DNA of 64,000 bases from Trichobilharzia szidati (Eukaryota; Platyhelminthes; Trematoda; Strigeidida; Schistosomatidae), in NCBI GenBank assembly GCA_944472155.2, contig OX235272.1:107080020-107144019 (forward strand), in the 5' to 3' direction. The notes beneath the pieces were generated by a model. That model was not told the origin of the DNA and searched no databases. It saw nothing but the letters and a program-made list of their open reading frames with translations. Position numbers and translations under genes: made by a program. This document shows, one piece after another, positions 468 through 55,049 of the stretch; within the stretch, counting starts at the first letter, position 1; every line of letters begins with the position of its first letter.

Positions 468-3400
468 CTAGTTAATTGAAGAAAAAAAAAGAGAGAAAAG
501 AATTCAACAAAACCTTAGAGAAAACATATATTTGTTAAGTGTACAAACATGAAATTTACACATTTATCACAACAGAGGTGTAAGTATCCCAGCTATATCG
601 ATTGAGATAACTAGGAAATGTGCTGTGCATTCTGAATCACTGTCTTTCTCAATGAGCAATTTTACTTCACCTAGATATAAAAATAGAACTTGTGCACTGT
701 AGAGGTAGAGTATATTTCCATTATGGATAAATTTTATTTTGATAAAGTCTCACAGTGTTGTTATACAGTAATATTTACTGATGACCACGTTTCCAGCACA
801 ATTCACTACTCATAATCTCATATCAAGGCAGTACTCACACAACTTTACAACTTCGTTTATATAATTCCATTATTTTCCATCTCTTGATTTGATTGGTAGT
901 AGTATTTTCCACATTTCTGGTATGAGTGATGAGTCATTCCTATTGCACGTGTTGGGTGTAGATCATTCTATGAACAAAGATTCAGTAATCAACCTCTCTC
1001 TCCATCTACCTATATTACTTTTTAGAATTTTGACTCTGTCCCACCCACCCTATTGTGTGATTGTGTGTTAATGCATGCAGGCACTGCAATTGCTGAGCTT
1101 CTTTTTTCTAAATTATTTATCTTTGCTGGGTCAATCATTCTAACCTTAGCTAAATTCTTATCTTCTAACAATCTGACTACCCCTGATCTACTAGTTCGAC
1201 CTATGTAGTTGACTTAACTCACAGTCATTGCAAGGTATTTTGTAAATTATATTATTTTGTCTAATTGGGTCAACCAACAGGGTCCTTTAACCTACAGAGT
1301 TTGAACAAGGAGAATTAGCTATGATGTTAGATTGTGAAATAAAACAAACAGACGAAGGTAAAGTGCACACTGGTGTTTATAAAATGCCAACGCATTCTGC
1401 TAATAGATATTTAGACTTTAATTCATCTCATCCATCATCTGTCTGTGAAGGCAGGCTTAGTTGTCTGTCTAACAAACTGAGTAGTAGCACTAAGTAGTAC
1501 ATCGAAAAATCTAAATGATGAAATGAAACAGATAGAAGAAGAAGCGTTGGTGTCAAATAAATAACTATCCTATAAAATTGATTAGGAAGATCAGAAAAGG
1601 TCAAAACCAAAATAAAAGTAATGGTTAAATTAATAATGATAACATAAATAACAAAGAATATAAGACGTCTACAGTTTTACCATATAAGGAGGGGACATCT
1701 GAGACCCTCTCTACGTAGGATTCTTGATAAAGCAGGAATTAGGCTGGTGGCATTCAAACCTACAAACTCACTCAGACAGGACAAGCTCTGTAGGTTAAAG
1801 GACCCTATCGGTTGACCCAATTAGACAAAATAATATAATTTACAAAATACCTTACAATGACTGTGAGTTAAGTCAAACTAGTAGATGGCGAGTAGTCAGA
1901 TTATCAGAACATAAGAATTTAGTAAAGGTTTAAATGATTGATCTCACGAAGACAGATGAGTAATTTAGAAAAGAAGCTCAGCAATAGCACTGCATGCATT
2001 AACACAGCACCACAGAATAGGGTGGGACAGAGTCAAATTTCTAAAAAGTAATATAGGTAGGTGGAGAGAGAGGTTGATTACTGAATCTTTGTTCATAGAA
2101 TGATCTACACCCAACACGTGCAATAGGAATGACTCATCACTCATACCAGAAATGTGGAAAATACTACTACCAATCAAATCAAGAGATGGAAAATAATGGA
2201 ACTATATAAAGGAAGTTGTAAAGTTGTGTGAGTAATGCCTTGATATGAGATTATGAGTAGTGAATTGTGCTGGAAACGTGGTCATCAGTAAATATTAATG
2301 TGTAATACTGTGAGAGTTTATCAAAATAAACCTTATCCACAATGGAATTACTTGACCTAGGACTAGGCTACAGAAGAGTTACAGATAGTCAAACGAAAAC
2401 CCGGCATCAGTCCATGAAGCCTCTGATAATTGGTTTGAATCACATAGGGAGGTGTAGACTGCCTGATTGGTGTACATGGGATACTAAGAACCAATTGGCT
2501 GGAGGCTATTAGTGGCATAGCTTAATGTCGTTTTCCCACATGCATAAAACCCTTAAATTTTCTCATGTTGCTATTCTCTTTCCCGCACATTTCCGCTCAT
2601 TATTAATTCTTTTGTATCTCTTTCGTGTGATATATGGAGTGTGGCTGCTTGAACTACTGTTCTTCTGTGCAAAGTCCCATGTTGAAACTCTGTCAGTCAG
2701 TCAGTCAGTCGGGAAACATAATGATAGCCTCTAAAATATCACTATTAGGGCTACCATAACAATGGATATTGAAGAACTGAATATAATCAGTTTTCTTAAA
2801 AGACGATAATTTACACAAAAACAATGTTTATGAAACTCCGGAAGTGTTCATACTGTATTTTAAATTCAACAATTAATTGCAGTCAATTTTAGATATAGTA
2901 ATGTACAAATTTTAACGCATACAGAATAAGGATTCTGAATGATTACAAACCTTTTGGAATGTAAAACAGAGAGCATTTCGTCAGCAGTATTATTCATTTT
3001 AGTTTAGAGGAGCAATTAACACAACCAACTGAGAACATTTTTTAACCATTGTGCCAGAAATTAGTGACTTGTTATTATTTCAAACGTCTGCGGCTTAACG
3101 ATGTAGGAAAGCCACCATCCTATCTACTAAGTATTAGATGGTTGGCGGTAATCGGCAGGAAGCCTTGGACTTATGTTTCATGCTTGTTGTCAATCACCAG
3201 TCAGCCTGGCCTATCTGTAATCACCTTGAAGGAACTCATGTCTCTTCTGAGCCACCTAGTGGCATGATGGCCACGTTGCAAACTTGAATGATCGAGTTCA
3301 GTCTGCACCAAAGACAGGACTAGACACACACATTACACTAGTTACTGACTAGTGTCCAATCAAAAATATCTAATACAGTCCTACAGGAGGTCAGTCGAGA

Positions 3401-6400
3401 GCCCGAATAGCTCAGTGGTAACGTCTCTGACTGTAGGCGGCACTGGACGACGTGGGCTCGAATCTCAGAAGGGACATGAATTCTATCAAGGTTGCAGGTA
3501 CATCTTGCTGACTGGTGGCGAGTGCTACCTAGCACGAAACCTAGGGCCTGGCAAGGCTTCCTGCCGATTACCGCCAACCATTTAATGTCATCAAATCAAA
3601 GTGCACCGTGATGACGAGCCACCTAGCACTGACGACCCACTCGTCGCTTCCCATTTCAATTCAACTAGAGCAATGGCCTAGCGATGTCATTCGACGGCCT
3701 CTTCAATGTATGCCTGATTCATCTCTATTTTCTCCTGCATGTGTGTTGAGAGATCAGCTCTTGGTTGGTTTGTTCCCAGCCAGAGTTTCTTGTTACTTAT
3801 TCTTTCTGGCTATTTGATCTTCAGTATGGAGCCAGAGAAGGCAGTTGTTGACGAAAGTTTGCAACCTGTTGGAAATCGTTTTCGTTACTAGTAGGAAGTA
3901 TTATTCAGCTGAAAAGTTTAAGGGGAATTTCATTGATTGCACGGTAGATTTGAATAGCAATTTTAGAATATCATACTAATTATAACTTATGCCTAAAAGC
4001 CACATAACCTTTAGTAGCTAGCATCACACAAATTAATGAACAGACAATTTTAGAAATCAACCTCCCCCCACAAATATAGATTTAATGATATTAATTTTAA
4101 GTCTTGAACAAAAAAATTCAGTAATTTAAAATTGCTATATCTGATCAAAAAGATTTACTAATCACTCCACACACTAACTGCTATAGTGACGTCAAGCTAG
4201 AAGCACACTTAGGCTTTTTTATTTCTCCATACCGCTGATTTATTGACCTGAAGACACTGATAAAATCTAGTCTTCTAAACACATTGAAGAAAAATCTCAG
4301 TTGTTTTTGGCCTGAGACTGGTCCTTGTCATATTAAAATATGATGCTGCACGACTGTCTGTCTTTCTGTCTGTTTTCGACATAGAACTTTGCACCGATGT
4401 GCGACAGTTCAAGTCGCCACACTCCATGTAGCACACAAAGCAAGAGAAGAAAGTAGAAGAAATGCATAGTAGAGACAGTAAACAGAGGTGTGAGACAAAG
4501 GAATAGTAATAACGAAGAACGATATAGTTTCATTTGAAATCATAAGTCACAAGGAGTGGATGCATCTGCGCCATTGAGAACGACTAGTCTACACTGACTA
4601 CTAGTTTGAGGATAGGAAAGAAATAGTTGAATATCATATGGTGACCACTTCATTGACTTCTGAAGTTTCATCAGTCTTCATGGATTGATAGTTGACAACA
4701 TATCGTTCGGAATTCGCTACATTGTGTCATCTTTCTTGTAAGCACGATATTTGTCTTCGCATTAATAGATATACCGTGTATTAGTTAGTTCTATCTTACT
4801 TAGCCGCCAACTTCTTTGACGAAGAACGTTAGCTGAAAGGTTAAGGTGAAAAAATGTCTAAGATGAGACAAGCAAAACGTGGTACAAATCTATGAAGTCA
4901 ATGATTAGCGATCTAAGCCATGTGTGGAGGTATAGAGTGCCCGGCTAGAGTCGTCAGAAAGTTAAGAACCAATGGTTAACGAAACTCAGTGGCATAAAAT
5001 TGGGGTGATATGATCTGAACACTTTCACTTAAATGATGAAGTGAAATCATTCAAGAATATTCATAAAGTTCTATAGATTCTGAATATAATATATACAATT
5101 GACTACGACTACTTAAAAAGATGTGAAGACATGGCTAAATGACTTGAGCACTCAACTTTTAGCCAGTGAATCTCCACTCAGAAACCCAATAATTGTACTA
5201 CGGTCTGCGCCACTAGATAGTATCTCCAACCCTCACACAATAGGTTTGGTTTGTAGCCTGATACATGAAAAATTAGTTCCGGGAAACTGATGAAAGATAC
5301 ATTAGTGAATACTGCCCATCAATCTATAATACTACAGGTATAGATAGCGAAGGGATATCAAAGAAAGACTGAACAAAAATAATACCAGTGATAATAAAAA
5401 TGGAATGCACACTGTAAGATTTACCATTCAAAAAAACACAAAAGAATATGAATGCGTCTCATACGAAAAGGATACTTCTGAATTCAAGAAACACATTGCC
5501 TACAGCAGCTTCCATACTTGATATAAGAGAAACTATTAAATCTTGTAAGCGTAACATTGAAAAAAAAAGTTTCAAATAGTGTCAAACAGTATGAAAAGAT
5601 TTGCAAACTTACAGATAATACTTGATCAGCTTCACATTCAGGCAAGGTACCAATAATAAAAAATATTGAATTGCCTTCTTCCTTCAATTGAGCTAAATAA
5701 GTGGTAAGATAAGTTTCAGAGATCAATCTTGGTGCAGGAAGTATTGAATTAAGATTGAACCATTGATTTCCAATCTTTCTTATCGTGAACCAGTGATGCT
5801 GATAATGACAAATGAAAGCTTTTTGTCCAGCCGGATTTTCTCTGGCTAGCTCTGCTTCGGGACACTGTCTCAAGAAAGGCACTAATTCTAAAGACCATAT
5901 TTGCAGAGCTTTGCAAATAACCTATAAGGTCATAGGAAGAAGAAAAAATACAGAAAAGCGTATTAAAGTATATAGAGATAGTAATTGCAAGTATGAAGTG
6001 TCATGTTGGATAAATCAGTGTATTCATCAAATCACTAGTTGTGATAACTTCACAGATTGAGATGGAGTACAAGAAAGCCCAAAAGTCCAGTGCAATAGAA
6101 AAACTATAATCAAATTAAAACCACAGTAGCAAAGTCACCTCTAATTCTTGTTGTGTTTTTTTAAAGAGAACAAAACATGAGCTAATAGTAAAAGATAGTC
6201 AGTAATAATAACAATGGTAATAATAGAATTTGCTTTGCAAAAGTGGCACTACATGTTTCAGTAGTTCATTTTGCGAAAGACACCTTTGACTATACAGCCA
6301 AAAAAGAATCAGAAGAGAAAACTTAAGATAGTTATTATTACCGCACAAAATAAACTCAAAAAAGAATGGTAATTTTTCATGATGGGGTAGAATCAAAAGC

Positions 6401-10520: not shown

Positions 10521-10799
10521 TTTACCAGAAAAGGATTAACTTAAGCTTCAACCTCCTATCCTCAAGCGACAAATCTGAATCTGAAGAACGCATAGGACAA
10601 TTGTATGGTCAATCGGAAATAGAGATTTATGGTGGATACTGTGTTTCGATACGAGTGAGTAAAACCGACTCTCACCAGTCGATGTGTTATTCTCTGTTAA
10701 TATGAATGGGATAAAATCTTCAATAGGCCAGCTGACCTCAATCCCATATTGATGCCTCAGGTTTATTTTAATCTCGTCATTTCTGTTTTTAACCTCGCC

Positions 10800-10905
10800 T
10801 AGTTAACTGGCTTGCTAGTTTTCGAGCCGGTCCCAAGTCTTGGTGAAGAGGAAGTGTTGGGCATAAGGCTGGCATCCCTACACCACAAAAGCTATCAAAC
10901 TGCAC
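10800..10905 (+). repeat. SINE-A / LINE-tail fragment
   Basis: The sequence cttggtgaagaggaagtgttgggcataaggctggca resembles the segment after the tRNA-like region of the SINE-A copy at 58795-58860. No tRNA-like part is present. Confidence 0.4.
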
Positions 10906-16269: not shown

Positions 16270-17060
16270 AATGAATTTCAGTTTAACATATTCATCGGGT
16301 CAAGCGAATCCTTTAGCCTTCCCAATTAAACAAAATAATATAATTTACAAATTACCTTGCCATGAATGTGAGTTAAGTCAGTTACATAGGTCGAACTAGT
16401 AGACCAGGGGTAGTCAGATTGTTAGAACATAAGAATTTAGCTAAAATTAGAATGATTGATCCCACAAAGATAATTTGGAATAAACTCCAGCACCGCATTG
16501 CACTGCATGCATGCACTAACTTACAACCGCACAATAGGGTGAGACAGAGTCAAAATTCTAAGGAGCAATATGGGTATATGGAAAGAGAGAGAGATCGATT
16601 ACTGGATACTGGTTCATCGAGTCTACACACCCAGCACATGCCCAACACAAGTGACCTGACATAAATACTAGAGAAATACAATATATTATAACTGTGAGTC
16701 AAGCCAGAGGATAAAAAGTAATGTTAAAATGTATTCAATTCAGATTATAACATTCTAACAAGTTATTTATTTATTTTAACATAAAAACATCTTATTTCCC
16801 ATTTTATTATATTTGGCTGATAACCCTCATTTTATTTCCGAATATACTTTATTGATTTTATTCAAATGTCCAATCATCAATTTTACTTATGTATATTGAA
16901 GCAAAAAGTTATGGGAATGACTTAATATGATTATGAGCAGTAGTTTGTGGTCATCAGTAGTAAATATTACTGTGAAACACTGTGTGATTTGTCAAAATAA
17001 AATTTTATTCATAGTGGAGTTATACTCTACCACCACAGTGCCCAAGTTTTATACCTATAT
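16270..17060 (+). mobile_element. PLE 3' fragment (same family as 718-2346)
   Basis: GIY-YIG region remnants (tgtgagttaagtcag…cataggtcgaactagtagacc) are near 16365-16410. The conserved C-terminus and the terminal segment follow (gtggtcatcagtagtaaatatt…tggagttatactctacc), ending near 17055 (gtgcccaagttttata). Confidence 0.65.
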
Positions 17061-19470: not shown

Positions 19471-22400
19471 GTTCATTTAATATCTTTGATGAATTTAAAA
19501 ATATAGTCTGTTTATTTTTTAGTGGTTACAAGTATACATGAATCGAGTTTCAGCTTTAAATCTATTCCATGAGAATAAAGCCAATCATGCATTAGTAAAT
19601 GAATATGAATGTGGACAAGGCATACTTGTAAGTTCACTACTTTTGTTTGTTTGCTTAGGAGGACGGAGTATTTCTTAAGTTTTTTCTGTTGTCATTAGAA
19701 ACGCATTCTACCAATCTACTTATTTCACGTACTCTAGGCTATAGATTTCAATGTGAGAGCTAGTGATGGTATGTAAAGTAATAATATTAGTTTGGGTTCG
19801 GAGTAGAATACAGGGTTTCAATAGCACTTTGCCATTTTACTGTTTTTTGCAGTTCTTTTTGGATAGGTTCAAGATTGTCTATAAGCTTTCATTTCCTCGT
19901 CAAACAGATGTATCTCATATCGCCGTCGGACGCTCCCCTGAAGTCGTTGCTTCTCATTCAGATTCCACTCGAGCGCCTGGCGCTTGTTGGTAATCAATGC
20001 TTTCCTCAGCATATATCCAATTCACCTCTATTTCCTTATGCGTATTTATAGACTACGGATTAGGCAAATAAGTATTTCCAGGAAATTTTCACCAGTCTTT
20101 ACATTTACGTAATAAAATATTAGTCATAGATATTTGAAACAGCGTCGATCAATAGAATCAAAACTCAGGGATGTGAGTTAGTGGATAACAACAGAAGCGA
20201 TCATCATCATAAGAATAATAATGACAAGGTTAAATTCATTCAAGTGATTATGCAATCTAAGTAGTCGTGAATGTGTAAGTAGAGTGTGTCTCTCTGTCTG
20301 TTTTCAACATAGAACTTTGCACCGATGTGCAGCAGTTCAAGTCGCCACACTCCCTCCTGGTAGCACACAAAGCCAGAGAAGAAAATAAAAAGAAACGCAA
20401 AATAGAGACAGTAAAGAGAGATATGAGGCAAACAGAATAGTAATATCGAAGAACAATATAGTTTCATTGGAAATTATAAGTCGCAAGGGGTGGATGCATC
20501 TGCGCTACATTGAGAACGATTTTGAGCCATATCACTGACTGTCTCCAGTCATAAGTTTTTACCGTCCCGAGGAACCCAACCAAGAAGTCTGCACCTTCCT
20601 TCATGTTTTAAACTAACTGTTGTGAATTTCGTTGACTGGCGCCATGTTTTGGTTTGACCGCAGCTAGCTCTTTTCCAGCCTGACCCTATATCAGCTAACA
20701 TTGCCCGTTGTCGAGGAAGGCTATGGCTAGGCATGCGTAACACATGTCCTAACCGTCTCAATCGATGTATCTTCACAGACTCGTCTATTGATTTCCCATC
20801 TATACCTAGCAATTGATTTTTTTTTTGATTTACAGCTTGATTCCACACCGTATTTTCAGTACAAGTGTGGAATTTTCAGCATGGATATCGGTTGCCCAAA
20901 TTCAGGCATACCATAGATATCGGGTGTGCGCCGGCAGGGGCTCGAACCCCGGACCATGTGCATGGTCGGCGAGAGTCCTAACCACTGTGCCACCGACGCA
21001 CAATGGATGGATGACTAACCTCAATATTGCTCACCCTACTATACCACTTCACACGGAAGATAGAATGCAGGCACCTATGATCAAAGACAGCTAATCTTTT
21101 CATATCTTCCACTCTCAATGGCCAAGTATTAGCCATGAAGGAGGATGGAGCGGACTGCTGAGCTGTACACTCGCCTTTCGGTTGGTAGCTGGATATCACG
21201 TCTACGCCAGAGACGGCGTAAACTGGCATATGCGAAACTAGCCTTCTGTATCCGTGCTGAGATTTCGTCAGCGATCAACCCGCTGGCATTGGCTGATGCA
21301 ACTTCCCAAATAAGTGAAGCGGTCAACGTGCTCTACCACTTCACTCCCTATTTCTAAGGTAGGAGTCAATGTAGTCCAGTCCTGTAGGATGCATCATCCT
21401 ACATTTGGCGGGCGCGAATCCCATTCCATACAAGGTACCAGCTTAGTTGCCTGAGTTTGTAAGTCTTCGATTGCTAAGCATAACTAAGGCAGTTTTCATA
21501 ATGAAATTGTCAACTCAGTCTCTGTGTTGTATAGAAAGAGTTTGTTAAGTTCGTCTCATTCCATGGCCTTCACCCCCAACCTAGAATAGTTGCGTCTCCC
21601 GGAGACACTGGATAATTGTAAATATTATTTTATTTTTATTTGTACTGCCAACTATATTATAGCTATATCATGATATGGTATAGTTGCATATTTTAAGCTA
21701 AGTTCTAAATTTATTCTTGTCATTATAATATCATGTGGTCTCTAAATGACAATAGTTATTTCACCCACCCCCTCCTACCTCTACTACTATATACACTCTA
21801 CTTACATATTCACGAATACTTAGATTATATAAACACTTGAATGAATTTATTATTATTATTATGATCACTTCTATTGTAATCCACTAACTCACATTCCTGA
21901 GCTTTGATTCTATTGATTGACGCTGTTTCGAATATGTCTATGACTGTGTAATTGTAAAGGTTGATGAGAATTTCCTGAAAACACGTAGTTGCTAATATCG
22001 TGTTTGATAATTATCATAATGGGTATATTCGAGTTGTGCATATTTTTGTAGGTGATAGATAGGTCTTTGATTTGTTCGTTACCATTGGTTCCTTATCCCT
22101 TTTCCTTTCTGACGCGCTATCTCATCTTTAGAATGAAACTGAAACAATTGTTGATGAAAGTTTCCAGTCTTTTGGATATGCTATTCATGACGCTTGAGTC
22201 AAGTCTCTGAACCAGATAGAAGCACTGATTGACTTGACATTAGTGTTGAAGATCCGGATCTTGGTCCTCATTTGGAGCGTAGTAGGTCTCCACACTGATT
22301 TCAGGTCAATGGAAATCTGTCTTGGTACTTAAATCCTCCTTTTAACCTCCGCGTTGATGACCAACTAATATACAAGGCAAGGTTGGTAGGGCTAACTGAT

Positions 22401-25400
22401 TTTCAGTTGTCGAGCTGACTTCGTCGCCTGACTTTTCCTTATTGTGTAGTGTGTTGGTTAATGAGGTTATTGCTTTCTGATATTTCCGCCATTATGTCAT
22501 TCAGTGAACTGTGAGGCTGACAGCAGCTGATATCATTTCATAGCTGCACGCTTAATGGTAGCTTACAACGCTACAATAACGCATTGTGCAGTTCTACCTT
22601 TGGTGTAGTAGCAGTAAAGTATTGTCTAAAAATTCAAGGTTTTTATGTCTTTACTGTTTCAATCCAAAATTCCTGGCGCCGGGTTCAGGGTGATCAAGAA
22701 TGCTCTGACTCCGGGTGGAGGCTCACCATTGCACCTCGGTGGGCTGAAACTCGTAACAGCCCCTAATTGGGTGCGCTCAGGCGTGTAGTTTTTGTCAGTG
22801 GGCTGGCCTCACGGTCCTCCCTTTATCGTGCTTCGGTGGCACAGCGGTTAGGACGCTCGCCGACCACACACACGGTCCGGGGTTCGATCCCCGGTCGACG
22901 CACACCCCATATCAATGTCTGGCCTGCAAAATTTGGGCCACCGATATCACATGCTGAAAATTCCATACTTGTATAAAAAATACTGTATGGAGTCAAGCTA
23001 TAATAAAATAAAAAGTAAATAAATAAAATAGATATAAGCAGTATGATGAAACATGTATTTTTGTTAGCTTATATAGTGAAAGCATAGTGTAATTAAGATT
23101 TGAATTTAGTGACGCATAACAAGACTATTGTTTACGAGGCTGTGATACGCACGTATTGTATCAATGCTGATAATTTTACTCAGTCCGCAAAACTGAAGTC
23201 ACTGAAGTGGGGACCGAATTCAAGTTCTGATTCATTTACTGTAGACTTGATCTTTTATTATTTTCAGGGGAAATACCCATCCAGACATGAATATAAGAAC
23301 AAAAAAGTTTAGAGAAGAGTCTCTTTTCGACGGCGAGTTCATTCACGTACGATCGCACTTATATATATTTATTTTGTGCGCGTGTGTGTGTACATTAGGA
23401 TTGCCAAACAAAAAAAAAATAAAAATTAGTTGGGGTTACTGTTTACGTCATCGAAATGTTTCTAAAATGTGATGAATAATCAAAATTGTAACTAGGGGAG
23501 GGGGTCGTGAAGATTGGTAAGTATTGACAAGGGTTGCGGAATATGAAATAGGATGTTGGTGGAGACACGTGTCATGACAAGCTGTGAAAAGAACATTCCC
23601 TGCTGCTACATTACGATTGGTATTCTCAAGCCGCCCATTGTTCCTCAACAACTCCAAAGATAAACTACCGCATTTAACCACTTCTACGTGTATCTACCAG
23701 TTTACTTGCTCATGTAGAGAGAGTGAGATATATAGGTCGTTCGATGCGTGTTTTATCCAAAAGAGTCAAAGAACATTATCCCGCTTGGTTACGAAAAGGT
23801 AACAGTGGATCAATAAAGAGTGCTATAATTGAACATATAGTCAACACTGGTCACTCAATATGCACGGAGAATTCATTCAAAGTCATCTAAAAAGTCAAAA
23901 GAAGCCTCCTGAAAATGGTAGGTAAGCTTCTGTATACTTTGCATTGCCGAGGCCTTAGCGATCCGGATACGAAACCCTGACTTATGCACACAGAAGAAAC
24001 TTCTCCACCCCCTCCTTCTACCTTGGGTATAATTTCAAGTTCTACGACTTTGTTAATAATGTTTTGTTTTCTTTTTTTGTTTTTTGAATTTTTGTATGGC
24101 ATCTTAGTAACATCTTCTTCCTAATCAACCCCTTATTTACTCTTCCTACCCACTACATAATTTATTTCTTGGACACGTCTTCCCATTAACATCCTATTTC
24201 ATATTAATAGACAGAAAACCAGTAGTTCAGCGATGAGTCTCTTTTCGGCGAATTGTTTTGTATGTGTGTACATTAAATTTGGCAAACGGAAATACAATTA
24301 GTAAGTTCAGAGAAATTAGATGTTGATAGAAGAGGATAGTAACAAAAGTGATGAGTTGTCACAAATGATTGTTAAAGAAGAGTTACGTAATAACGTGAAA
24401 GAGTTGTGCTCAGGGTGTACATGGAAACAAAGTAACATACGGAATTACGCAAGAGTTTTAAGCAGTTAGAAAAATAAGCATACAAGCAAAAGTTAAGTCA
24501 AATCAACAGAGTTGTTACGATGATAGTAGAAGTGGTTGAATAATTTTCTTTTGTATGCATAGTTCTGGTTCTTCTAACTCTCCTTATATGGCCACCACTT
24601 CCTTCCTGCAGCCACGCTGGATAGTGTTCTTTGACCCTTTTTGACAGGATGCACGTCGAACGACCGATGTACCTGGCTGGCTCCACAGCAACAGGTGAAC
24701 TGATATATACACATAGAAGTAGTCAGGCACGGGATCTTGTCCTTCGGGGTTCTGCAGATCAGCGGGCGACTGGAGAACACTACTCTCAATGTTGCCGCCA
24801 AGAAAGTTCTTCTTAAAGAAGTGGAAATTTCATGTTACACAACTCTTGTCAATACTCACCAATCTTCACCACCCTTTCTAGTTACAATTTTGATTATTCA
24901 TCACATTTAGAAACATTTCGATGACGTAAACAGTAACCCTAAATAACTTTTATTTTATTTTTGTTTGACAATCCTAATGTGCACACATACACACACAAAA
25001 TAATTATATGTAAAAAATGAAAGATAAATTCAGCGAAGAAAATTTTCTTTATCAACGAAATCATCTTCAGAGGCTGTACAGTCGTAATTATATTTACCAA
25101 TTATGTATAGTAGTCTATTATAGAGTAATAGGCGGAAGGGCGACATAATTGATATAATAACTCAGAAATGGCTTAAGAAGTGAAAATTAAAAGTCGTAAT
25201 TTACGTAGTACTGAACGATAATGCAAAGGAAGAAATGGTTAGAAATTTGATGGGGTTAAAATTGTTATTGAGTGAGAATAAAGGCAGTTGAGTGTCCAAG
25301 TGTGAACAAGTGTGAAGAGGGTATGAACATGTACAAAAGGAACATTGAGGCTGATAATAGTGAATTAATTATTAAAGTAAAAGCAAACTAAAAGTAAAAA

Positions 25401-28400
25401 TGAGAATTAAAAAATTAAAATTTTTACAGGGAACGACTAGTGAAGAGGTTAAGACCAAGGTAGAATAAGAGACTGGACAAACTTTTTCTCTACACAGAGT
25501 TCGAGGTTGTATTGATAAATAGCTGGGTCCCTTTGAGAAGAAAGAGAAACCTGATCTACTCCTTATCCTCAAGAATAAGAAGGATATGTGCCAGTGATGC
25601 AATCGATGGGGAACTGGAGCGACTCAGACAAGTCCTCATAGAAAAAGGATATCCTTCAAGATATATCGAGAAAAACATGAAGTTTAAGCAAAACCCTGAA
25701 AGAATCCAGACGGTGCCGAAGAAACTGCTATTGTTGAACGTTGGATTTAAAGTTGATACCGCAGCTGAGGTCCTGAAAAATCAATTATGCAGATCACTGA
25801 GAAAATCCTTCTTTATGGCTGAGCTACGGATCAATTTCTTCAGCCGACAATTGATCAATGGATGTGTGAAGGATAAACTACAGCTTTGGACGGGCCACTT
25901 CAATGTGTGTTTATAAATTCACCTGCTCGTGTGGAGCTAGTTATATTGGCCACATAAAGCGCAAACTTTCTAAACGCATCTCTGAATATTATCCGTCATG
26001 GTTAGCAAAAAGACAATGCAAGACAGTTACTAGCTCAATTCTCGAGCACTTGGTGAACTGAAGCCACGTAGCTCCACTAGAGTCATCTTTCAAGATCATC
26101 TACAAAATGAGGCCAAATAGTACAAAGGGCGTCAGGTTTCGGCTTTTGTGTATGGTGGAGGCGCTGGCAATTCGTCAATACAACCCCAACTCTGTATACA
26201 GAAAACGTTTGTCCAGTCTCTTATTCTACCTTCGTCTTGATCTCTTCACTAGTCGTTCCCCGTAAAAAATTTTAATTTTTTTAAATTCCCAATTTTACTT
26301 TTACTTTGCTTTTACTTTAATAACTAATTCACTATTATCAGTCTCATATGTTCCTTTTGTATATTTTCACACCCTCTTCACACTTGTTCATACTTGGACA
26401 CTCAACTGCCTTTATTCTCACTCAATAACAATTTTAACCTCATCAAATTTCTAGCCACTTCTTCCTTCGCAGTATCGTTGAGTTCTGCGTAATTTACGAC
26501 TTTTAATTTTCACTTCTTAAGCCATTTCTGAGTTATTATATCAATTATGTCGCCCTTCCGCCTATTACTCTATAATAGACTACTATACATAATTGGTAAA
26601 TATAATTACGACTGTACAGCCTCTGAAGATGATTTCGTTGGTAAAGAAAATTTTCTTCGCTGAATTTGTCTTTTATTTTCTTCATGAATGAATGGATATT
26701 TTCGGTGATTTGAAACAGAGGAAGAGTTATATATAAATGCGACTGTACAGTTAAGTGAATGAATTCGCCGTCGAAAAGCGACTCTTCGCTAAACTTTGTT
26801 GTTCTTATATTTTATTATTTTAACATTGTTTCCTTCCCACAATGCTTCATTTACAATCGAAGAGCTTGTGTTACATGATTTTGTAAGCGTTTAACAGCAG
26901 CATGAGACAGATATATCAGACTGCTGTGTAGCATTTCATTATTCATTATGTGATACCGAATATTTTTCAAGTTTTGAGTTGTATTCACTTGACTGATTTC
27001 ATTTTGGCTGTCATTACGAAGCTACATCAGTTGGAGAGCCACTTAGAATCAAGGCGCACTGAAAAACTGTTTCAGCCGAATGTTGACCTCTTCATTAGTG
27101 AGCACGTACCACGCCATCAGAAATTGGACCCAAAACTTTGAGGTTATAGATCGACCCCCTCGACCAATGTACAATAATAGTCTGGATGTTTGATACTGAA
27201 ACGATTATTTTTGTATTTTTATGAAGTGATAGCTAAATACCGCTTTCTATAGTTGAGAATTGTTACTAGTATTAGATCGATAAATGTTTGTGTGTTTGCC
27301 TGGCTGACTGACTGGTCTCAACGTAGAACTTTGCATAGATGTGCAGCAGTTTGAGTTGCCACACTCCCTCCTTGTAGCACACAAAGCAAGAGAAGAGAGT
27401 AAATAGAAACTCAAAAGAGAGAGAGAGAGATAATAAACAGAAATATCAGGCAAACAGAATGGTAATATAGGAGAACAACAACTTGAATTTTTTTCGAGGT
27501 TTTAGATACGCCTTGCTGATGAGTGCCAACTAACACGAAACCTAGGTCTAAGGCTTCCTGCCGATTGCCTCCAACCATCTAATACCAACAATTCACAGTG
27601 GACCGTGATGGCGAGCCACCTAGCATAGTGTCCACATTACAAGCTTGACTGATAGAATTCAGTCTGCACCGAAGATAGGACTAGATACATTACTGACTAG
27701 TGTCCAATCAAAAATATCCCATAGTCAGTCTTACAGGAGGTCAATCGGGAGTCTGAATGGCTCAGTGGTAACGTCTCTGACTGCAGCACTGGGTGACGCG
27801 GGTTCGAATCTCAGAAGGGACATAAGTTCCTTGGAGGTTGTAAATACGCCTTGCTGATGAGTGCCAACTAGCACGAAACCTAGGTTCAAGGCTTCCTCCC
27901 GATTGCCTTCAACCAGCTAATACCAACAATAGAGTTTTATTGGACATGCTAAATCACGAAGAGTGAATGCATGTATGTCATCGCCGTGAACGATTGTGAG
28001 CCATATCACCAATTGTCTCCAGTCTTCATTAGTTTTTACCGTCCCGAGGATCTCAACCAGTCAGGAAGTCTACATCTCCCTACGTGGCTGACTTAAACTA
28101 ACTATTATGGATTTCATTGACTGATGTAGCCATGCTTTGGTTTCACGACCACTAGCTTTCTTTTTTCCAATCTCTTCCATCCTATTTCAGTCAGCTGACA
28201 TTTCCCGTCGGTTGAGGAAGGCGATCGATGGCTCAGTGGTATGCGTAACACATGTCGTAACCATCTCTCTCAATCGGTGTAGTAGCTCCACAACCACCTC
28301 GTCGATTGATTCCCCCTCCTTACCACCTACCTAGCACTCGACCACCGATGCCTAACCTCAGTATTGCTCACCTTATGATACCATCACCTAACACGGGACG

Positions 28401-33244: not shown

Positions 33245-33550
33245 TCAAAACAATAGATACGCCCTGCTGACGAGTGCCAACTAGCATGAAACCTGCGTCA
33301 AGCAAGGCTTCCTGTGGCCAGTTGCCTCCAACCATCTAGTATTAACAATTCAAAGTGCAAGGTAGTGGCTCGCCACCTAAAATGGTGACTGACAAAATTT
33401 AGTCTTCACCAAACAAATGACTAAACGCACTACACTAGTTATTAACTAGTGTCCAATCAAAGTATCCAGCAGAGCCCTACAGGAGGTCAATCGGGGTAAC
33501 GTTTGTGACTGCAGGCAGAATTGGTTGACACGGCTTCGAATCTCACAAGT
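33245..33550 (+). mobile_element. Retrozyme C monomer fragment
   Basis: A hammerhead at about 33261-33308 is followed by the C family middle (acactagttattaactagtgtccaatc). The tRNA-like part lost most of its A box (tcggggtaacg) but keeps the GCA anticodon region and a damaged B box (GGCTTCGAATC). Confidence 0.65.
33261..33308 (+). ncRNA. Hammerhead of retrozyme C, damaged stems
   Basis: Core CUGACGA at 33267-33273 and GAAA at 33288-33291 are intact. Stem II is GUGC/GCAU with one wobble. Stem I has a mismatch and three extra bases before CAAGGC. Stem III reads CCUGCGUC, weaker than in the copies at 27.5 kb. Activity is doubtful. Confidence 0.6.
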
Positions 33551-33689: not shown

Positions 33690-34235
33690 GAGCTAAGTAA
33701 GATCGGATGAGTCGAACACACTTCCTTTCATCTGAAGTCAGTATGGAGACCTATTACATTCGAAATAGGTACCAAGATCCGGATTTTCAACACTAAATGT
33801 CAAGTCAGTCATTGTTTCTATTTGTTCCAGAGTCTTGACTCACGTGTCATGAATAGCAGATCGAGCAGGCTGGATACTGTCATCAGCAGCTGGTTTAGTT
33901 CCATCCTGAAGAAGAGATAGCCGATCAAAAAAGAACATCCACAAGGAAGTATATTACCATATCAACCAAAAGCCTATTTCCCAACCAATATGCACAAGGA
34001 AAAGGAGATGGAATAGATAAAGTAGGAGGGGACCGTTCAGTGACGTCATGCACCACACCCTCGAATGGAAGCCGAATGAGGAATGATGATTTGGTTATGT
34101 GTCTAAGGATGATATAGAGGAGACCGTGTAAAGAGGAAATGGAAGCCTATAGGCAGCCGCGTACCAGCCGAGGAAGACTAGATTGGATTAATGAGGTTCT
34201 GTGTTCCACTCGTATCCTAAGGGATTAATAATGAT
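33690..34235 (+). mobile_element. RTE-like LINE, C-terminal end (decayed)
   Basis: The left part (gtaccaagatccggattttcaac) corresponds to the RTE KIRIFNT region. The middle has KEKEMEWIK-like remnants of the RKRRWRWIGH tail, then EWKPNEE near 34065. The 3' end is ttctgtgttccactcgtatcc near 34200 with a TAATAATGATAA tail. Confidence 0.5.
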
Positions 34236-34379: not shown

Positions 34380-35470
34380 TCTATGCATTTGTTCTGAAAC
34401 CTTAACCTTCAGGGATGGATAGGAAAGGAAAGGAGTAATTAATGACTTGGATTTCTACTGTCGATATATGGATGATACATTTCTGGTTATGAAAGACGAG
34501 AATGATGCAATAAACATCCTTGACAAGTTTAATGATGCACATTCAGCAGTAAACTTTACCATAGAGAAAGAAAGTAATGACAGTATCCCATTCCTAGACG
34601 TCTTCAAGGCAAGGAAAGAAGATGGCACACTAAGAAGAAGAGTGTATTGGAAACCTACAACAACAGGTCAGTACACTCATTTTTTGAGTTTTGTACCTTT
34701 GAAATATAAACGTAACCTGGTAAAGTGTCTGGTTCATAGAGCTAGGTTAATCTGTTCAGACGACTGCCTCAATGAGGAGCTTAAGATTATTAGAGAATTA
34801 CTTAGAAAAAATGGTTATCCAGATAAATTCATTGAGAAAAATATGAATTCAGCACCTAGGAGAGTCAGTATAGCAACAGTTCCGAAAAAACCAATGTTCA
34901 TAAAACTGCAGTTCCTCGGTGACAACATCAGCGAAATAATAACACAGCGCCTGAAGAATGCAGTTAAAAGAGCTTTTTATGCAGCAGAGGTACGTTGTCT
35001 CTCCACAACCACCCGTATTCTACGTTCGAGAAAAAAGGAGAAACTACCTAAATTTGCCTCCTCTATGTGTATCTACCAGTTTGACTGCAGCTGCGGAGCC
35101 AGCTACATTGGGCGTACAATTAGGCAGGTTCATCATCGTTTTTCCGAACATATCATTCAACATGCTTAAGTAAGGGACAAACAAGATCTATTCGTAGTTC
35201 TATTTCAGCACACCTTGTAGACAGCGAGCATAAGGCTGACGTTAATACAGCATTTAAAATTATCTATCGCGTTCCTACTAATCTTAATTTTACTTTACCA
35301 GTTCGTCTTCTACAGACAGCTGAAGCAATCGGAATCCACCAGAAGAAACCAAGCCTATGTGTACAGAAGAAATATGTACAGCCACTTTCCTTACCGTGGC
35401 CATCTCTAGAAGAATGCATAAACAGGACTACGTCGCCCTCCTCCCCCCAAACCTTTAAAAACTATAAAAA
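34380..35470 (+). mobile_element. PLE: RT palm end, linker and GIY-YIG endonuclease
   Basis: A 240-codon open frame from about 34447 begins at RT motif C (FYCRYMDDTFLVMKDENDA). It continues through the thumb (IPFLDVFKARKEDGTLRRR), the linker (LLRKNGYPDKFIEKNMNSAP, KKPMFIKLQFLGDNISEII) and CIYQFDCSCGASYIGRTIRQ to a stop near 35167. A frameshift then separates the remaining C-terminus (ending LCVQKKYVQPL near 35370). It is among the longest intact frames in the window. Motifs A and B are missing (5' truncation). Confidence 0.85.
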
Positions 35471-39119: not shown

Positions 39120-39360
39120 TTTCTTGCTTCATACTTTGATTGGACACTAGTCAGTAACTAGTGCGATGTGTGCCTAGTCCTATCTTCAGTGCAGACTGAA
39201 TTCTATCAATCAAGTTTGCAATGTGGGGCCACCATGCCACTAGGTAGCTCACCATCACAGTGCACTTTGAATTGTTAATATTAGATGGTTGGAGGCAATC
39301 GGCCACATGAAGCCTTGTGTGACCTAGGTTTCATGCTAGTTGGCACTCGTCAGCTTCATT
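39120..39360 (-). mobile_element. Retrozyme C fragment
   Basis: On minus it begins at the hammerhead core and runs through the tail (ccgattgcctccaaccatc) into the family middle (gactagtgtccaatcaaag near 39150-39135). The tRNA-like part is absent. Confidence 0.65.
39312..39353 (-). ncRNA. Hammerhead of retrozyme C without 5' stem I strand
   Basis: Core CUGACGA at 39353-39347, stem II GUGC/GCAU, GAAA at 39332-39329, stem III ACC/GGU and a GUC cut site (C39321) are all intact. The sequence upstream (aatgaag) does not pair with CAAGGC, so the copy starts at the core and should not fold as a complete ribozyme by itself. Confidence 0.6.
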
Positions 39361-41350: not shown

Positions 41351-41398
41351 CTGGAGTCAAGGATGTACATTTCGTCCTGTTTGGGACGAATTCCCAGT
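41351..41398 (-). ncRNA. Sm-alpha-type hammerhead relic
   Basis: On minus: the 5' core is replaced (ggaattCGT where CTGACGA is expected), then CCC…AGGAC, GAAA at 41373-41370, stem III AUGUACAU and tccttgactcc, as in the Sm-alpha 3' half. Inactive. Confidence 0.5.
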
Positions 41399-41624
41399 GA
41401 GTAGGTGATTGCGCTATCACAAATCAAACTTGCCGCGTTTTCATTTCAATATATTTGTATAGGCAGAACGGAGATAGTTAGCTGTGGGTTGAATATTCTC
41501 GGATTGTTGATTTTGTATTACAGGCCTAAAGGAATGCTGGAATCATATCAGAGATTATGTCTGACTGTTTTAAAATGGTGTACCATCAACTTTTTTATGC
41601 AGCTAAAATATCTATTATAATAAA

Positions 41625-43587
41625 GGTATTTTGTATTTCCCAATGAATGAAAAACAAAACGATATTGTTTTTACTAACGTTTCGCTATTTAATGCTAGTA
41701 GCTTTATCAAAGTATTATTAAACCGGGATTAACAAAATCTCAGCATATATATAACAAAGAGTTAGGGAGTGAGAAAATAGACTAAATACCTACTCTCGGT
41801 ACTACAACCACGAAAAAGGGACACTCAAAATATTGTAAGAAATTCATATGATTTCAAATGGAAAATAGAACACCGAGAAATTGATGAAGACGTTAAAGTA
41901 AGCTATGATATTAACTCATTATATACTAGTATCCCTATTACCGAAAGTTTTGATATCATTTCGAGTCTACGAGAATCAGATACAACGCTATCACAAAGAT
42001 GTCCACTGGACACCAGTCAAATAATTAAGAGCTTGAAATTCTGTCTAGAAAGTGATTATTTTACATTTAAAGGGAGTTTATATATACAGAAAAATGGTGT
42101 TGCTTTGGGTTCATCAGTCTCCCCAATAGTCGCTGACCTTTTCATAAATAGATTTTGAAGATAACATCTTTTCAAGCATACTCACTCCTAAAATGTGATT
42201 AAGATATGTAGACGATACTTTTTTAGTGCTAAAACGAGATCTACACAATTCCCTCCTGGAGAAAATAAACTGTGTATCTCCCAGAATCCATTTTACTTCG
42301 GAAGCAGAATCAGACGTCGGTGAACTACCATTTCTAGACTGCCTAGTTAAGAGGAGGGAAAACGAACATTTTAGTATATCTATATTCAGGAAGAAAGCCC
42401 ACTCCAATAAATATTTAGACTTCAAATCATCACACCCCACCAGCGCAAATATTTCAGTTGTTTCAAGTCTTCTTGGACGAGCACACTCTCTGATAACGGA
42501 TGAGAAAGAAAAAAGAAGAAGAAATATCAAACATTACTGAAGCTCTCAAGCAAAACCACTACCCAAAGAACTTCATCAACAGAATCAACACAGACATTAA
42601 GTGTGGCGAAAACGCATTCCAAAAACCATGTACCTCAACAGTCGTCATTCCGTATAGAGCAGGGACATCAGACGATATCAGAAGAGTACTCAATCAGCTT
42701 GACATTAGAGTTTTCTTCAAAACACCAGACACTACGAAACAACCTTGTCCATATAAAAGATCAAATGCCCAAAGATTCTCTATCTAATTGTGTCTATAAA
42801 ATGAAATGCTTGGAATGTGATGCTATATACATCGGACAAACATCTCGAGAAATCAAAATCAGAAGAAATGAACACCATAGAGCATCTGTTCGACCACCGA
42901 GAAATCCAGTTGAAATAGAAAAACTTGAAAAATCATCAGCCATAGGTCACCTACACACTATAGAATCAGGCCACAAAATTGATTTCGACAATTTTGAAAT
43001 AATCCGGAAAATCTTCAGGAATCACAAAGAACGTCTAATATCAGAAGCACTTCATACCAAGCGGAATCTGAATTGTCTGAACAGGAATGATGGACTAAAA
43101 CAGAATCTGATCTTGTTACAAAACCTCCCTCTCCCATGAGCTGACAAAATCAACACGAATGTGACAAGCAAGTTCAGTATGTAAACACACACTGCTTTTG
43201 TAATTTTACACACTGATCAAATTCAACAATCTACACTTGGTTTTGTTATCTTTACCAATTGACCAAATTGACTACGAAAAATGACCGCAGACTGACGAAC
43301 GAACGAACTTTGTTCCGATATCATTACATACGTAGTATTACCTTTGTTATTTGGTTTAGTGATCTTCATTGTTATTTTGACTTTCAATATGTCCCCCCTT
43401 TTAACCCCTCCTTTTAACTTGACCCAAGTCTATTTCTCACCTCTTAACTCTTTGTTATATATATGCTGAGATTTTGTTAATCCCGGTTTAATAATACTTT
43501 GATAAAGCTATTAGCATTAAATAGCGAAACGTTAGTAAAAACAATATCGTTTTGTTTTTCATTCATTGGGAAATACAAATAACCCTT
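41625..43587 (+). mobile_element. PLE with 145-bp terminal inverted repeats and target duplication
   Basis: Inverted ends lie at about 41630-41775 and 43436-43580. The direct repeat attataataaa flanks it (41614-41624 and 43588-43598). Inside, on plus: RT motif A (YDINSLYTSIPITESFDI near 41912), motif B (NGVALGSSVSPIVADLFI near 42090), motif C (YVDDTFLVLKRDLHN near 42208), thumb, linker (TSTVVIPYRAGTSDDIRR near 42635) and GIY-YIG (CLECDAIYIGQTSREIK near 42813, RRNEHH). It ends at a stop near 43139. There are at least three frame breaks. The fingers are missing. Confidence 0.85.
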
Positions 43588-43759
43588 ATTATAATAAATA
43601 TCATATACGCAATGCCCAAATTTTTTCTAACTGTTAAAAGTGAACTTGGTGTGGACATATATAGCTAAAATATCTGTTGAGACATTGAATCTAGAATGAG
43701 CAAATACATCTCAAGATTGTCTTTATCTTTTCTTGGCTGCTGGATTCTAGGCTCAATGG

Positions 43760-43900
43760 GTACTTAATTAATCAGTTACTGAGGATGTAGCGCAGTAATC
43801 GAAAAGCGCGGATGTAAGCACATCCAGCCGACGAGTCATAAATAGGACGAAATGCACATCCTGGACTTTACTGTTAGCTATCGTCAACCAAATAATACCA
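43760..43900 (+). mobile_element. Sm-alpha-like SINE relic
   Basis: A hammerhead-containing repeat with a degenerate tRNA-like start (gtagcgcagtaatcg) and 3' body (ctggactttactgttagc). Confidence 0.6.
43821..43868 (+). ncRNA. Sm-alpha-type hammerhead, U4 mutated
   Basis: Stem I is CAUCCAG…CUGGA. The core reads CCGACGA instead of CUGACGA (U4 to C, expected to inactivate). Stem II is GUC…GGAC, then GAAA. Stem III is AUG/CAU with a short loop, then the GUH-like cut site AUC. Confidence 0.65.
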
Positions 43901-44159: not shown

Positions 44160-44345
44160 AGTGCTAGGTCTTAGTTTGGTCCAAGTGGTCTAGTGGATAA
44201 CGCCTTGGCGTTTGAAAATATGGGCACTGGGGCCAAGACTCGGTGGGAACATCATCACTAACTGGGGGATTCGGGTACATCCATTTGACGAGTCCCGAAT
44301 GGGGCGAAATGCGCATTATCCTGGATTCCACTGCTAGTCACCATC
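44160..44345 (+). mobile_element. Sm-alpha SINE copy with A and B box relics
   Basis: The A box is TGGTCTAGTGG near 44187 and the damaged B box gggccaagactc near 44230. The hammerhead at 44274-44330 and the body ggattccactgctagtcacc follow. It lies directly upstream of the PLE at 44360. Confidence 0.65.
44274..44330 (+). ncRNA. Sm-alpha-type hammerhead, decayed
   Basis: ACAUCCA, then UUGACGA (C3 to U), stem II GUCCC/GGGGC, GAAA, and stem III AUGC/GCAU followed by an inserted UAU before CCUGGAUUCC. Core and cut-site spacing are both damaged. Confidence 0.6.
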
Positions 44346-46625: not shown

Positions 46626-46629
46626 TATT

Positions 46630-47190
46630 CAAGTATTGGTTTTTGTAGGGAATTTTGTTTGATTGGTTGGAAGTTTTCATCATGAGCTGACATCATTTAG
46701 AGAACCATTGGAAAATATGGGAGTGCTGGACAGCTGTTTCGTCCTAGTACGCATCCACCGGGGTTAGAACCCAGGACATCCTGGTTACAGCTAACTGATG
46801 TCAACTCATGATGAAATCCTCCAACCAATCAAACGAAATCCCTGCAAAAACCTATACTTGAAAATTAATCTGACGCTCACTAGCGACTGGCCCTATTCAG
46901 GCAGTTAACCTGGGGTTCTGTTGGGAAGCCGTGACCAGTAGGGTGCAGCAGGCTGAAGGCGAGGCAATAACTCGCCAAGGATGATATTGCGAAGTGGTAA
47001 CGCTATGTCTTGAATTGGCAGAAGTTGGAATTCATATACTGGCCATTGTATCGGGTTCCAGTGGTCTACGAGCTCTCTCGCCTTGTAACCAGAAGGTCCT
47101 GAGTTCGAACCCTTGTGGTGGGTGCGTACTAGTGAAGAGTCCGAAAACCAGGACAAAAAGCCGTCCAGTACTCCTAGATATATATACATA
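46630..47190 (+). mobile_element. Retrozyme T composite 1 (inverted head plus forward unit)
   Basis: 46630-46790 is a T tail, hammerhead relic and B box on minus. 46791-46862 is a forward T tail, 46865-47040 the T internal region (gacgctcactagcgactgg…), and 47040-47185 the forward tRNA-like region with hammerhead relic. Confidence 0.65.
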
Positions 47191-48099: not shown

Positions 48100-48995
48100 T
48101 CATGACCAAGATTTGGGACGAAACATTGATGTAAATTTCTGTCTACAAATTCGGCTAGCAGACAGCTCTCACCACAAAACAACATACTGTTTTGAAAGGA
48201 AAGCTGTCCACTTAAAGTTAATGCTCTCTCCATTCCTTTTTTCTTTCTTTTTGCATGACCTTCCATATTCTTCTAAAGCTAACTTCATTAAATGTGCCGA
48301 TGATATAATCATTTCTGTCCCAGTAGTTTTTGCTGTGAATTGTTAGATGAGTGGATTCTTATCTGAAGTTAACAAATGGTCTCACCTAAATGGTCTTAAA
48401 CGAAATCCATCTAAATGTCACATTGTTGATTTTAGTTTCAGATGCGAACAAGACTTGCGTGCGTCGACTGATTGATTCAGTCTCATGATTCCTGTAATAT
48501 TGATGCCTCTGTGATGATAGGGAGTAAATCGAATACCTCTCATCTCAGCATCAGTTTCTCTTCGAATCTCTGTTGGTCGTCGTCTCATATCCTGTTGATC
48601 CCTAAGAAGATTTTTCGTTTGACTTATTACATATAGAAGTTGAGAATTTCTGGTATAGTTCAGCCTCTTCCATTAGAATTTTTTAATTCATGTATTTGTC
48701 CCGTTCTCCTTTATCGTTCACCATTATTCTTCCCTGGATTTGTCAAAAAAGACTGTATCATATTACGTAGGACACTGAAAATTGTGAGTAGGCAGGGTTA
48801 GTGGTCTGTCTCTGATTCAGCTAACTGACATTTTGTCAATAGGTACTTCAATTCTTGCATTCATTTGGCTAAATTTATCTTGCCTGATGTTCATAAAATG
48901 AGCTAAATCGTTGTAATGTGTAAAAAGAAACGTTGAAAATTTCATTCTGTATGATTATTATTTTTCGTAATAAAGTGGTTATTATTATCATATTT
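48100..48995 (+). mobile_element. CR1-like LINE, RT motif C to 3' end
   Basis: LSPFLFSFFLHDLPYSSKAN near 48222 and KCADDIIISVPV near 48291 (motif C intact) are followed by FLSEVNKWSHLNGLKRNPSK and a decayed C-terminus. It ends in a TTATTATTATCA tail near 48990. Confidence 0.7.
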
Positions 48996-48996
48996 G

Positions 48997-49710
48997 GTTA
49001 CAGGATTTCATCATGAGTTGACATCGGTTAGAGAACCACTGGAAAACCTGCAGGAAGTACTGGACAGCTGTTTCGTCCGAGTTTGGTACTCTTCTGCATG
49101 ATAGATCAAATCCCTACAAACCAATACTTAGATATCAATGAGACGCTCACTAGTGACTGGCCTTATTCAAGTAGGTAGTTATCTGGGATTTTAGTGGGTA
49201 GTCGTGACCAGTAGGGTACAGAAGGTCGGGTGTGAGGACAAATACTCGCCAAAGACATTGGCTAGCGGTCGCGCTGTGTGGTGAATTGGCAGAAGTTGGA
49301 ATTCATAGGTCATTGGATCGGTTGAGCCCCAGTGGCTTAATGGTCTACGACCTCGCTCGCCTTGTAACCAGAAGGTAGTGAGTTCGAGCCCCACCGTGTG
49401 GGCGCATTTTGATGAAGAGCTCCAAACTGGCTGTCCAGTACTCCCTACCAATGTCCTAATGGTGCCAGTGGCACAGCGGTTACGACGCTTGCCCACCATG
49501 AGCATGGTCCGGGACTTGGTCCTCGTCCGACGTAAACCTGCTAAATTTGGGATACCGATATCACATGCTGAAGATTCCATACGTACACCAAAATAATGTG
49601 TAGAATCAAGATATAACAAAATAAAATAAAATAAAATAAATAAATAAACAGCAGCTCATGATGAAATCCTGTAACCAGTCAGTGAAATCCCTGAAAAACA
49701 ATACTTGAAT
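48997..49710 (+). mobile_element. Retrozyme T composite 2, with a nested SINE-A
   Basis: 48997-49105 is the inverted T arm (tggacagctgtttcgtccgag). The forward internal region is at 49130-49310 and the tRNA-like region has A box TGGCTTAATGG at about 49330-49340. A hammerhead relic is near 49405-49445 and the tail at 49651-49710. The SINE-A at about 49452-49650 interrupts the tail. Confidence 0.65.
49452..49650 (+). mobile_element. SINE-A nested in retrozyme T
   Basis: The A box is TGGCACAGCGG near 49470; the B box region is damaged (ggacttggtcctcg). The body is gggataccgatatcacatgctg and the tail an (AAAAT)n run at about 49617-49645. Confidence 0.7.
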
Positions 49711-55045: not shown

Positions 55046-55049
55046 AACT

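Follow-up and report, generated by a model that had tools for sequence, protein, structure and literature searches.

A Hammerhead-Bearing, SINE-Like Repeat Family in Trichobilharzia szidati: Insertion Sites and Insert Ends

Hammerhead Elements in Schistosomes and Other Metazoans

The works cited for the Sm-alpha and Sj-alpha elements of schistosomes are reportedly Ferbeyre 1998 and Laha 2000. Both elements are SINE-like Schistosoma repeats with hammerhead ribozymes (HHRs), and the sections of the source that deal with Sm-alpha derive it from tRNA-Gln-TTG, estimate its copy number at >10,000 and class 2,342 of the 2,368 tRNA-Gln-TTG-like loci of S. mansoni as SINEs similar to it (PMC2770079). 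Metazoan retrozymes have been described in a study that also mentions platyhelminths, whose relevant sections present the non-LTR type as type I hammerhead repeats of about 300 nt in a dimer-like arrangement, with target duplications of >4 bp when present and a short, tetraloop-capped helix III, and call a helix III of two pairs capped by a tetraloop similar to invertebrate HHRs (PMC7229834). As stated in a passage of another paper, metazoan retrozymes could be regarded as a novel SINE family (PMC7761336). In S. mansoni, hammerheads also occur in the W-elements, and three of five candidates cleaved in vitro (PMC8490949). No paper on Trichobilharzia hammerheads was found in the open-licence literature searched, the 15 papers listed out of 1,827 on flukes contain no mention of a hammerhead ribozyme, and passages of PMC10886601 have nothing on schistosomes. 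An exact-pattern scan of viral contigs gave no match, near records possibly being left out of it.

The repeat family described here, family A, was found in a 64-kb window of Trichobilharzia szidati, that is, the whole stretch of DNA that was analysed (64,000 nt of contig OX235272.1). It resembles Sm-alpha and Sj-alpha in its schistosome host, its SINE-like build, its hammerhead and its tRNA-derived region (tRNA-Gln-TTG in Sm-alpha), but, in a comparison by description only, the tRNA-like head of family A is degenerate and could be assigned to no tRNA. With the metazoan non-LTR retrozymes it shares a type I hammerhead repeat of similar size in a dimer-like arrangement and a short helix III with a tetraloop, and its putative target duplications would be of comparable length (PMC7229834, sections on these elements). 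Its G+C content of 47% compares with <45% in the Figure 1 legend and <50% in the text of that paper, in whose main text the terms “polymerase III” and “SINE” have 0 occurrences, whereas family A contains A and B boxes; moreover, the circular RNA of family A would be a prediction from DNA sequence. The W-element families likewise are schistosome hammerhead repeats, comprise several families and have copies also off the W chromosome, but they are satellite-like W-chromosome elements, and “tRNA” and “retrozyme” have 0 occurrences in the main text that describes them (PMC8490949). Penelope-like elements (PLEs), too, carry hammerheads in retroelement repeats, but, according to the pertinent sections of PMC6155905, they are autonomous and their HHRs usually lack helix III.

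The best reading of the sequence is that family A is a new SINE-retrozyme family, with a combination of tRNA-type promoter and hammerhead that is already known from human blood flukes. The earlier note had seen in this combination a new link between SINEs and retrozymes, which is no longer tenable, since the sections cited above already present Sm-alpha as a SINE family that carries HHRs and derives from tRNA-Gln-TTG (PMC2770079). The hammerhead/SINE link in schistosomes is already established; newly seen here are the empty sites and the mapping of insert ends.

A 338-Nucleotide Unit With a Hammerhead at Each End

27479..27924, + strand: inserted element, about 1.3 units of the 338-nt family A repeat, placed by the empty site and repeat mapping (edges +/- about 6 bases)
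27486..27592, + strand: terminal direct repeat, first copy, 107 bp, from repeat comparison
27824..27930, + strand: terminal direct repeat, second copy, 107 bp, from repeat comparison
27549..27886, + strand: 338-nt unit between the predicted cuts, from unit mapping
27510..27554, + strand: HHR1, type I hammerhead, Rfam Hammerhead_1 35.2 bits, E 4.5e-05, predicted cut 27548/27549 (GUC), one mismatch in stem II
27848..27892, + strand: HHR2, type I hammerhead, Rfam Hammerhead_1 39.4 bits, E 1.7e-06, predicted cut 27886/27887 (GUU), stem II all paired

At the 27.5-kb locus a direct repeat of 107 nt is present in two copies, which are spaced 338 nt apart and 89% identical (27486-27592 against 27824-27930), while BLAST aligns 100 nt of the first copy to the second at 91% identity. 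Along the copy, HHR1 is followed by the body, the A and B boxes and then HHR2, and no ORF of at least 120 aa was found inside 27479-27924. The 107-nt repeat, its spacing and the Rfam matches confirm the coordinates of the 338-nt repeat with a hammerhead at each end that had been described in the earlier note: at least two tandem HHRs bound one unit, and a type I hammerhead lies within a short repeat (150-450 bp; here 338-nt spacing with Rfam type I matches). The description as a tandem retrozyme holds in part: two HHRs at a spacing of 338 nt make this schistosome unit one of SINE/retrozyme type, but the locus looks like 1.3 units that were inserted in a single piece and not like an array.

Both hammerheads score at or above the Rfam Hammerhead_1 gathering score of 34 and both contain the core motifs CUGAUGA and GAAA. 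A chance match as the source of the two is unlikely, given the E-values of 4.5e-05 and 1.7e-06. Each is laid out with stems I, II and III of six, four and two pairs, stem III reading ACCUAGGU, which by eye comprises two pairs and a palindromic tetraloop. HHR2 is free of mispairs; HHR1 has one G-U pair and one non-pair in stem II (C27526/A27533), so that the two hammerheads, which had been called intact, are so in their core motifs and Rfam scores but not in stem II of HHR1. By standard hammerhead numbering the cuts are predicted after 27548 (GUC) and after 27886 (GUU), at a distance of 338 nt that agrees with the earlier note. A GUU cleavage site is usually poorer than GUC.

Folding predictions recover the hammerheads in short sequence contexts but not in long transcripts. 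With 5-nt flanks, the probability of stem I was 0.40-0.98 for HHR1 and 0.89-1.0 for HHR2, with 50-nt flanks 0.08-0.19 and 0.01, and in the 445-nt transcript 0.00 and 0.26-0.29, respectively. HHR2 gave 0.78-0.88 in 27824-27930 and 0.00 in 27749-27937, the putative pol III RNA. The folding test has little power, because the hammerhead at 43822, the top scorer of the window, which departs from CUGANGA, performs likewise poorly in it. The predicted stability of the circular monomer was not unusual against 100 shuffles (z -1.22).

Promoter Signals and Transcription

27758..27811, + strand: tRNA-like promoter signals for pol III, with an A box at 27758-27769 and a B box at 27801-27811, one mismatch in each, assessed with a Markov control
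27488..27494, + strand: run of seven T before HHR1, possible pol III terminator; runs of four T also at 27500 and 27935

The window contains five pairs of A and B boxes with at most one mismatch per box, whereas 100 Markov-resampled windows average 0.19 such pairs with a maximum of 2, and the tRNA-like A/B box region proposed inside the unit is borne out by this excess. Its designation as Cys-tRNA, by contrast, found no support, and a tRNA-Cys origin was rejected: ARAGORN (bacterial code) returned 0 tRNAs in the window and Rfam no tRNA match at E<=1 in the 161 bases of 27700-27860, although a degenerate head could escape both, and the region varies among copies (CTGCAG versus CTGTAG, plus a 4-base length difference). 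Neither program found a recognisable tRNA fold or a named tRNA ancestor for family A.

From these boxes pol III would be expected to start near 27750 and then to encounter the T4 run at 27935. Because the boxes sit downstream of HHR1, a pol III transcript of the 27.5-kb unit excludes HHR1, while pol III transcripts from upstream would encounter the T7 run at 27488 and the T4 run at 27500 ahead of it. The suggestion that the internal promoter drives production of the 338-nt monomer was therefore rejected for this unit, where the monomer could be released only from pol II or other read-through transcripts that start elsewhere. TTTT is absent from the 338-nt unit, including the joint between two units, so that pol III could traverse several tandem units in a longer array.

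Family A Copies and the Ends of Their Inserts

33254..33549, + strand: family A copy, unit 293>269 across the cleavage junction, from unit mapping; A-box region deleted
39135..39354, - strand: family A copy, unit 305>164 across the cleavage junction, from unit mapping; A/B-box region absent; flanked by ATGAAGC
3131..3628, + strand: family A locus of two joined pieces, one inverted (3131-3251, unit 262>37) and one direct (3249-3628, unit 65>77); HHR cores broken

Relatives of the 27.5-kb element lie at three further loci in the window (3.1-3.6, 33.3 and 39.1 kb), so that it is not a one-off local duplication. With unit position 1 as the first base after the HHR1 cut and the tRNA head at about unit 200, the 27.5-kb copy maps to unit 276>44. 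The cleavage junction is spanned at all four loci and none starts or ends at it; likewise, none starts at the tRNA head. The 3' ends are scattered (unit 44, 77, 164 and 269) and, by eye, no constant 3' tail was seen among the copies, so that a fixed 5' end at the tRNA head together with a fixed 3' tail is found at 0 of 4 loci. The 5' ends of three of the four cluster at unit 276-305 (27486, 33254 and 39354 on the minus strand), just past the tRNA-like region, which could reflect a preferred 5' end, a stop of the reverse transcriptase or chance, and could mark processing past that region.

The inserts at 27.5 kb (445 nt) and 3 kb (380 nt, just over one turn) exceed one turn of the unit, and both A/B boxes are kept at these two of the four loci, with one and two mismatches at 3 kb. 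One hammerhead each is present at two of the other three loci, and the 3-kb locus has two broken ones in inverted arrangement. Both core motifs are retained in four of the six family A hammerhead sequences, among which all but the 27.5-kb pair have additional bases between cut and stem I. At these four loci, scattered 3' ends and lengths of more than one turn are compatible with circular or uncut multimeric RNA templates and variable start points. The order of the pieces at 3 kb would fit twin priming of one multimeric RNA; the two HHR pieces there are only 75% identical, which disfavours a single circle as template or else points to great age.

Empty Sites and Target Duplications

27474..27478, no strand: putative target duplication AACAA, left copy; single AACAA in the empty site; a CAACAA placement at 27476-27481 also possible
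27925..27929, no strand: putative target duplication AACAA, right copy; single in the empty site, double at 27.5 kb

Both flanks of the 27.5-kb element (27308-27478 and from 27925) match the continuous stretch 20294-20806, which represents a paralogous empty site (left flank 82% over 171 columns, right flank 71% over 400), so that the element looks to have entered an older repeat as a single 1.3-unit piece. For the duplication, a match of 6 or more was obtained with a chance of 0.060 in 400 random placements. Because the internal unit also reads CCAACAAT, AACAA at the right edge may instead be microhomology between element and target.

For the 39.1-kb copy, the upstream flank matches 16609-16896 (71% over 314 columns), and the empty site at about 16897-16902 contains a single TGAAGC, compared with ATGAAGC on both sides of the copy (39353-39359 and 39126-39132; chance 0.043 in 400 random placements). 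The right flank also aligns beyond the empty site, with a score that 1, 6 and 2 out of 500 random stretches reached at lengths of 30, 60 and 120 bases, respectively, although the 400-base downstream flank gave no BLAST match there at 1e-5. The 33.3-kb copy is flanked by the 6-base TTCAAA (chance 0.090, 400 random placements), with no empty site found for it, and the 3-kb locus has no target duplication (chance 0.62, 400 random placements). Thus, putative duplications of 5-7 bp occur at three of the four family A loci (chance 0.043-0.090) and not at the fourth, and two loci have empty sites; short target duplications are probable on this alignment evidence, and the empty sites indicate that the 27.5-kb and 39.1-kb copies are discrete insertions.

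Other Hammerhead Families and Neighbouring Repeats

Rfam hammerhead matches in the 64-kb window number 11 at E<=1, five of them at gathering, and by eye the hammerheads were sorted into families A (four), B (four) and C (three, nearest the Rfam consensus). Family B shows a tRNA-like head in the alignment, with A/B pairs that reach only one and two mismatches, of which 1.7 are expected by chance per window. Family C has a tRNA-like stretch upstream of one copy by eye, and the A/B scan gave no match there. Family A is probably not alone in the source genome in combining a tRNA-like head with a hammerhead. In family B, the three loci 54512-55047, 48993-49446 and 46628-47174 have in common an antisense piece of the HHR region and, after it, a sense unit whose head is tRNA-like, which looks as though a single element, an inverted-repeat composite, had spread. 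The hammerheads of family C lie at 43822-43866, 44279-44326 and, on the minus strand, 41362-41387; the first two are 457 bases apart, with a tRNA-like stretch seemingly before 44279, and this family (43822, 44279) looks closer to Sm-alpha in a comparison by eye with the Rfam consensus.

An inverted repeat of 176 bp with 95% identity between its copies (41608-41783 and 43427-43601) bounds ORF fragments at 41781-43136 that are Penelope-like by eye. At 22666-22893 a U1 snRNA match (88.3 bits) is followed within 13 bases by the A/B boxes of another tRNA-like repeat, which could be a gene with a neighbouring SINE or a chimeric repeat. The Rfam match to mir-3492 at 21240-21321 (49 bits, gathering 44) lies in a repeat-rich stretch and may be repeat-derived, and a weak twister-P1 match at 10786-10860 (29.5 bits, gathering 67.2) is probably due to chance. 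Also encoded in the window is a partial ataxin-3 (Josephin) protein, which matches a Trichobilharzia regenti protein with 90% identity and 99% query coverage.

A Model for Family A and Its Alternatives

With reasonable confidence, 27479-27924 can be read as a single, old insertion from family A, a family of short non-coding retroelements that would spread through RNA that is either cut and circularised or multimeric; the 27.5-kb copy itself is probably a relic. The model builds on the repeat, the motifs, the boxes, the empty sites and the scattered 3' ends. For the cycle, we infer transcription, cutting, circularisation and the identity of the enzyme as follows. Transcripts through two or more units would be cut by the hammerheads into 338-nt monomers, which a host RtcB-type ligase may close into circles, or multimers may escape cutting. 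A Penelope-like or LINE reverse transcriptase, provided in trans, would start at variable positions and may exceed one full turn, and the cDNA product would insert with a target duplication of 5-7 bp. Owing to the internal A/B boxes, full-turn inserts could retain the promoter. A more specific form of the model, in which the template is a hammerhead-made RNA circle with its own pol III promoter, hence the permuted, over-one-turn inserts of a SINE that passes through a circular RNA stage, is unlikely. If it held, new inserts could be transcribed again, because a promoter that lies within the circle would be kept through a full-turn permutation.

It is somewhat unlikely as well that family A is an ordinary SINE of tRNA origin whose hammerhead is vestigial and which is copied from linear multimers made by read-through, with no circle and no role of the ribozyme in mobility, the 1.3 units then stemming from a multimeric genomic source. 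The uncut junction at 4/4 loci is expected where cutting is rare, permuted ends may also arise from linear multimers, and the 75% identity of the 3-kb HHR pieces is as in a heterogeneous multimer; the poor hammerhead formation predicted in long RNA and the three of four 5' ends that fall within 30 nt point the same way. Unlike in a classic SINE, however, the 3' ends are scattered with no constant tail by eye and the tRNA head is the start of no locus, and both hammerheads at 27.5 kb retain their core motifs despite 9-11% divergence of the repeat.

It is improbable that the copies come from a tandem satellite array, as fragments that were moved or trimmed by DNA-level events such as unequal exchange or extrachromosomal circular DNA. 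DNA circles would also explain tandem units and permuted ends, and circular DNA intermediates are raised, for instance for schistosome W-elements, in a passage of PMC8490949; yet at two loci the element entered an older repeat and is flanked by what may be a short duplication, and Tandem Repeats Finder finds no array of the 338-nt unit in the window, though 1.3 copies are below its reach. It is more improbable still that family A is a remnant of the terminal repeats of a Penelope-like element. A PLE-type ORF fragment at 34423-35166 (72% identical over 97% to a Trichobilharzia szidati protein) lies on the same strand as the 33.3-kb copy, which is about 870 bases upstream of it, further ORF fragments are PLE-like by eye, and HHRs have been reported in PLEs (PMC6155905). 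Nevertheless, a different repeat (33716-33948) separates this copy from the ORF, no family A match is present on the other side of 34423-35166, no family A copy in the window abuts a PLE-like fragment, and the PLE hammerheads are usually minimal, as described in part of that paper, whereas in family A a short helix III occurs together with A/B boxes.

As a single copy, the 27.5-kb element is a modest finding, and the insertion-end data are its most useful part. For the insertion of hammerhead SINEs in schistosomes, the sources drawn on here leave a circle, a cut monomer and an uncut multimer as alternatives. Mapping of insert ends on the unit combined with empty sites, done here for four loci, needs only an assembly and would show whether the ribozyme plays a part in spreading. 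If the circular-template reading is true, the scattered 3' ends together with the empty sites would be traces left in the genome by a circular RNA step.
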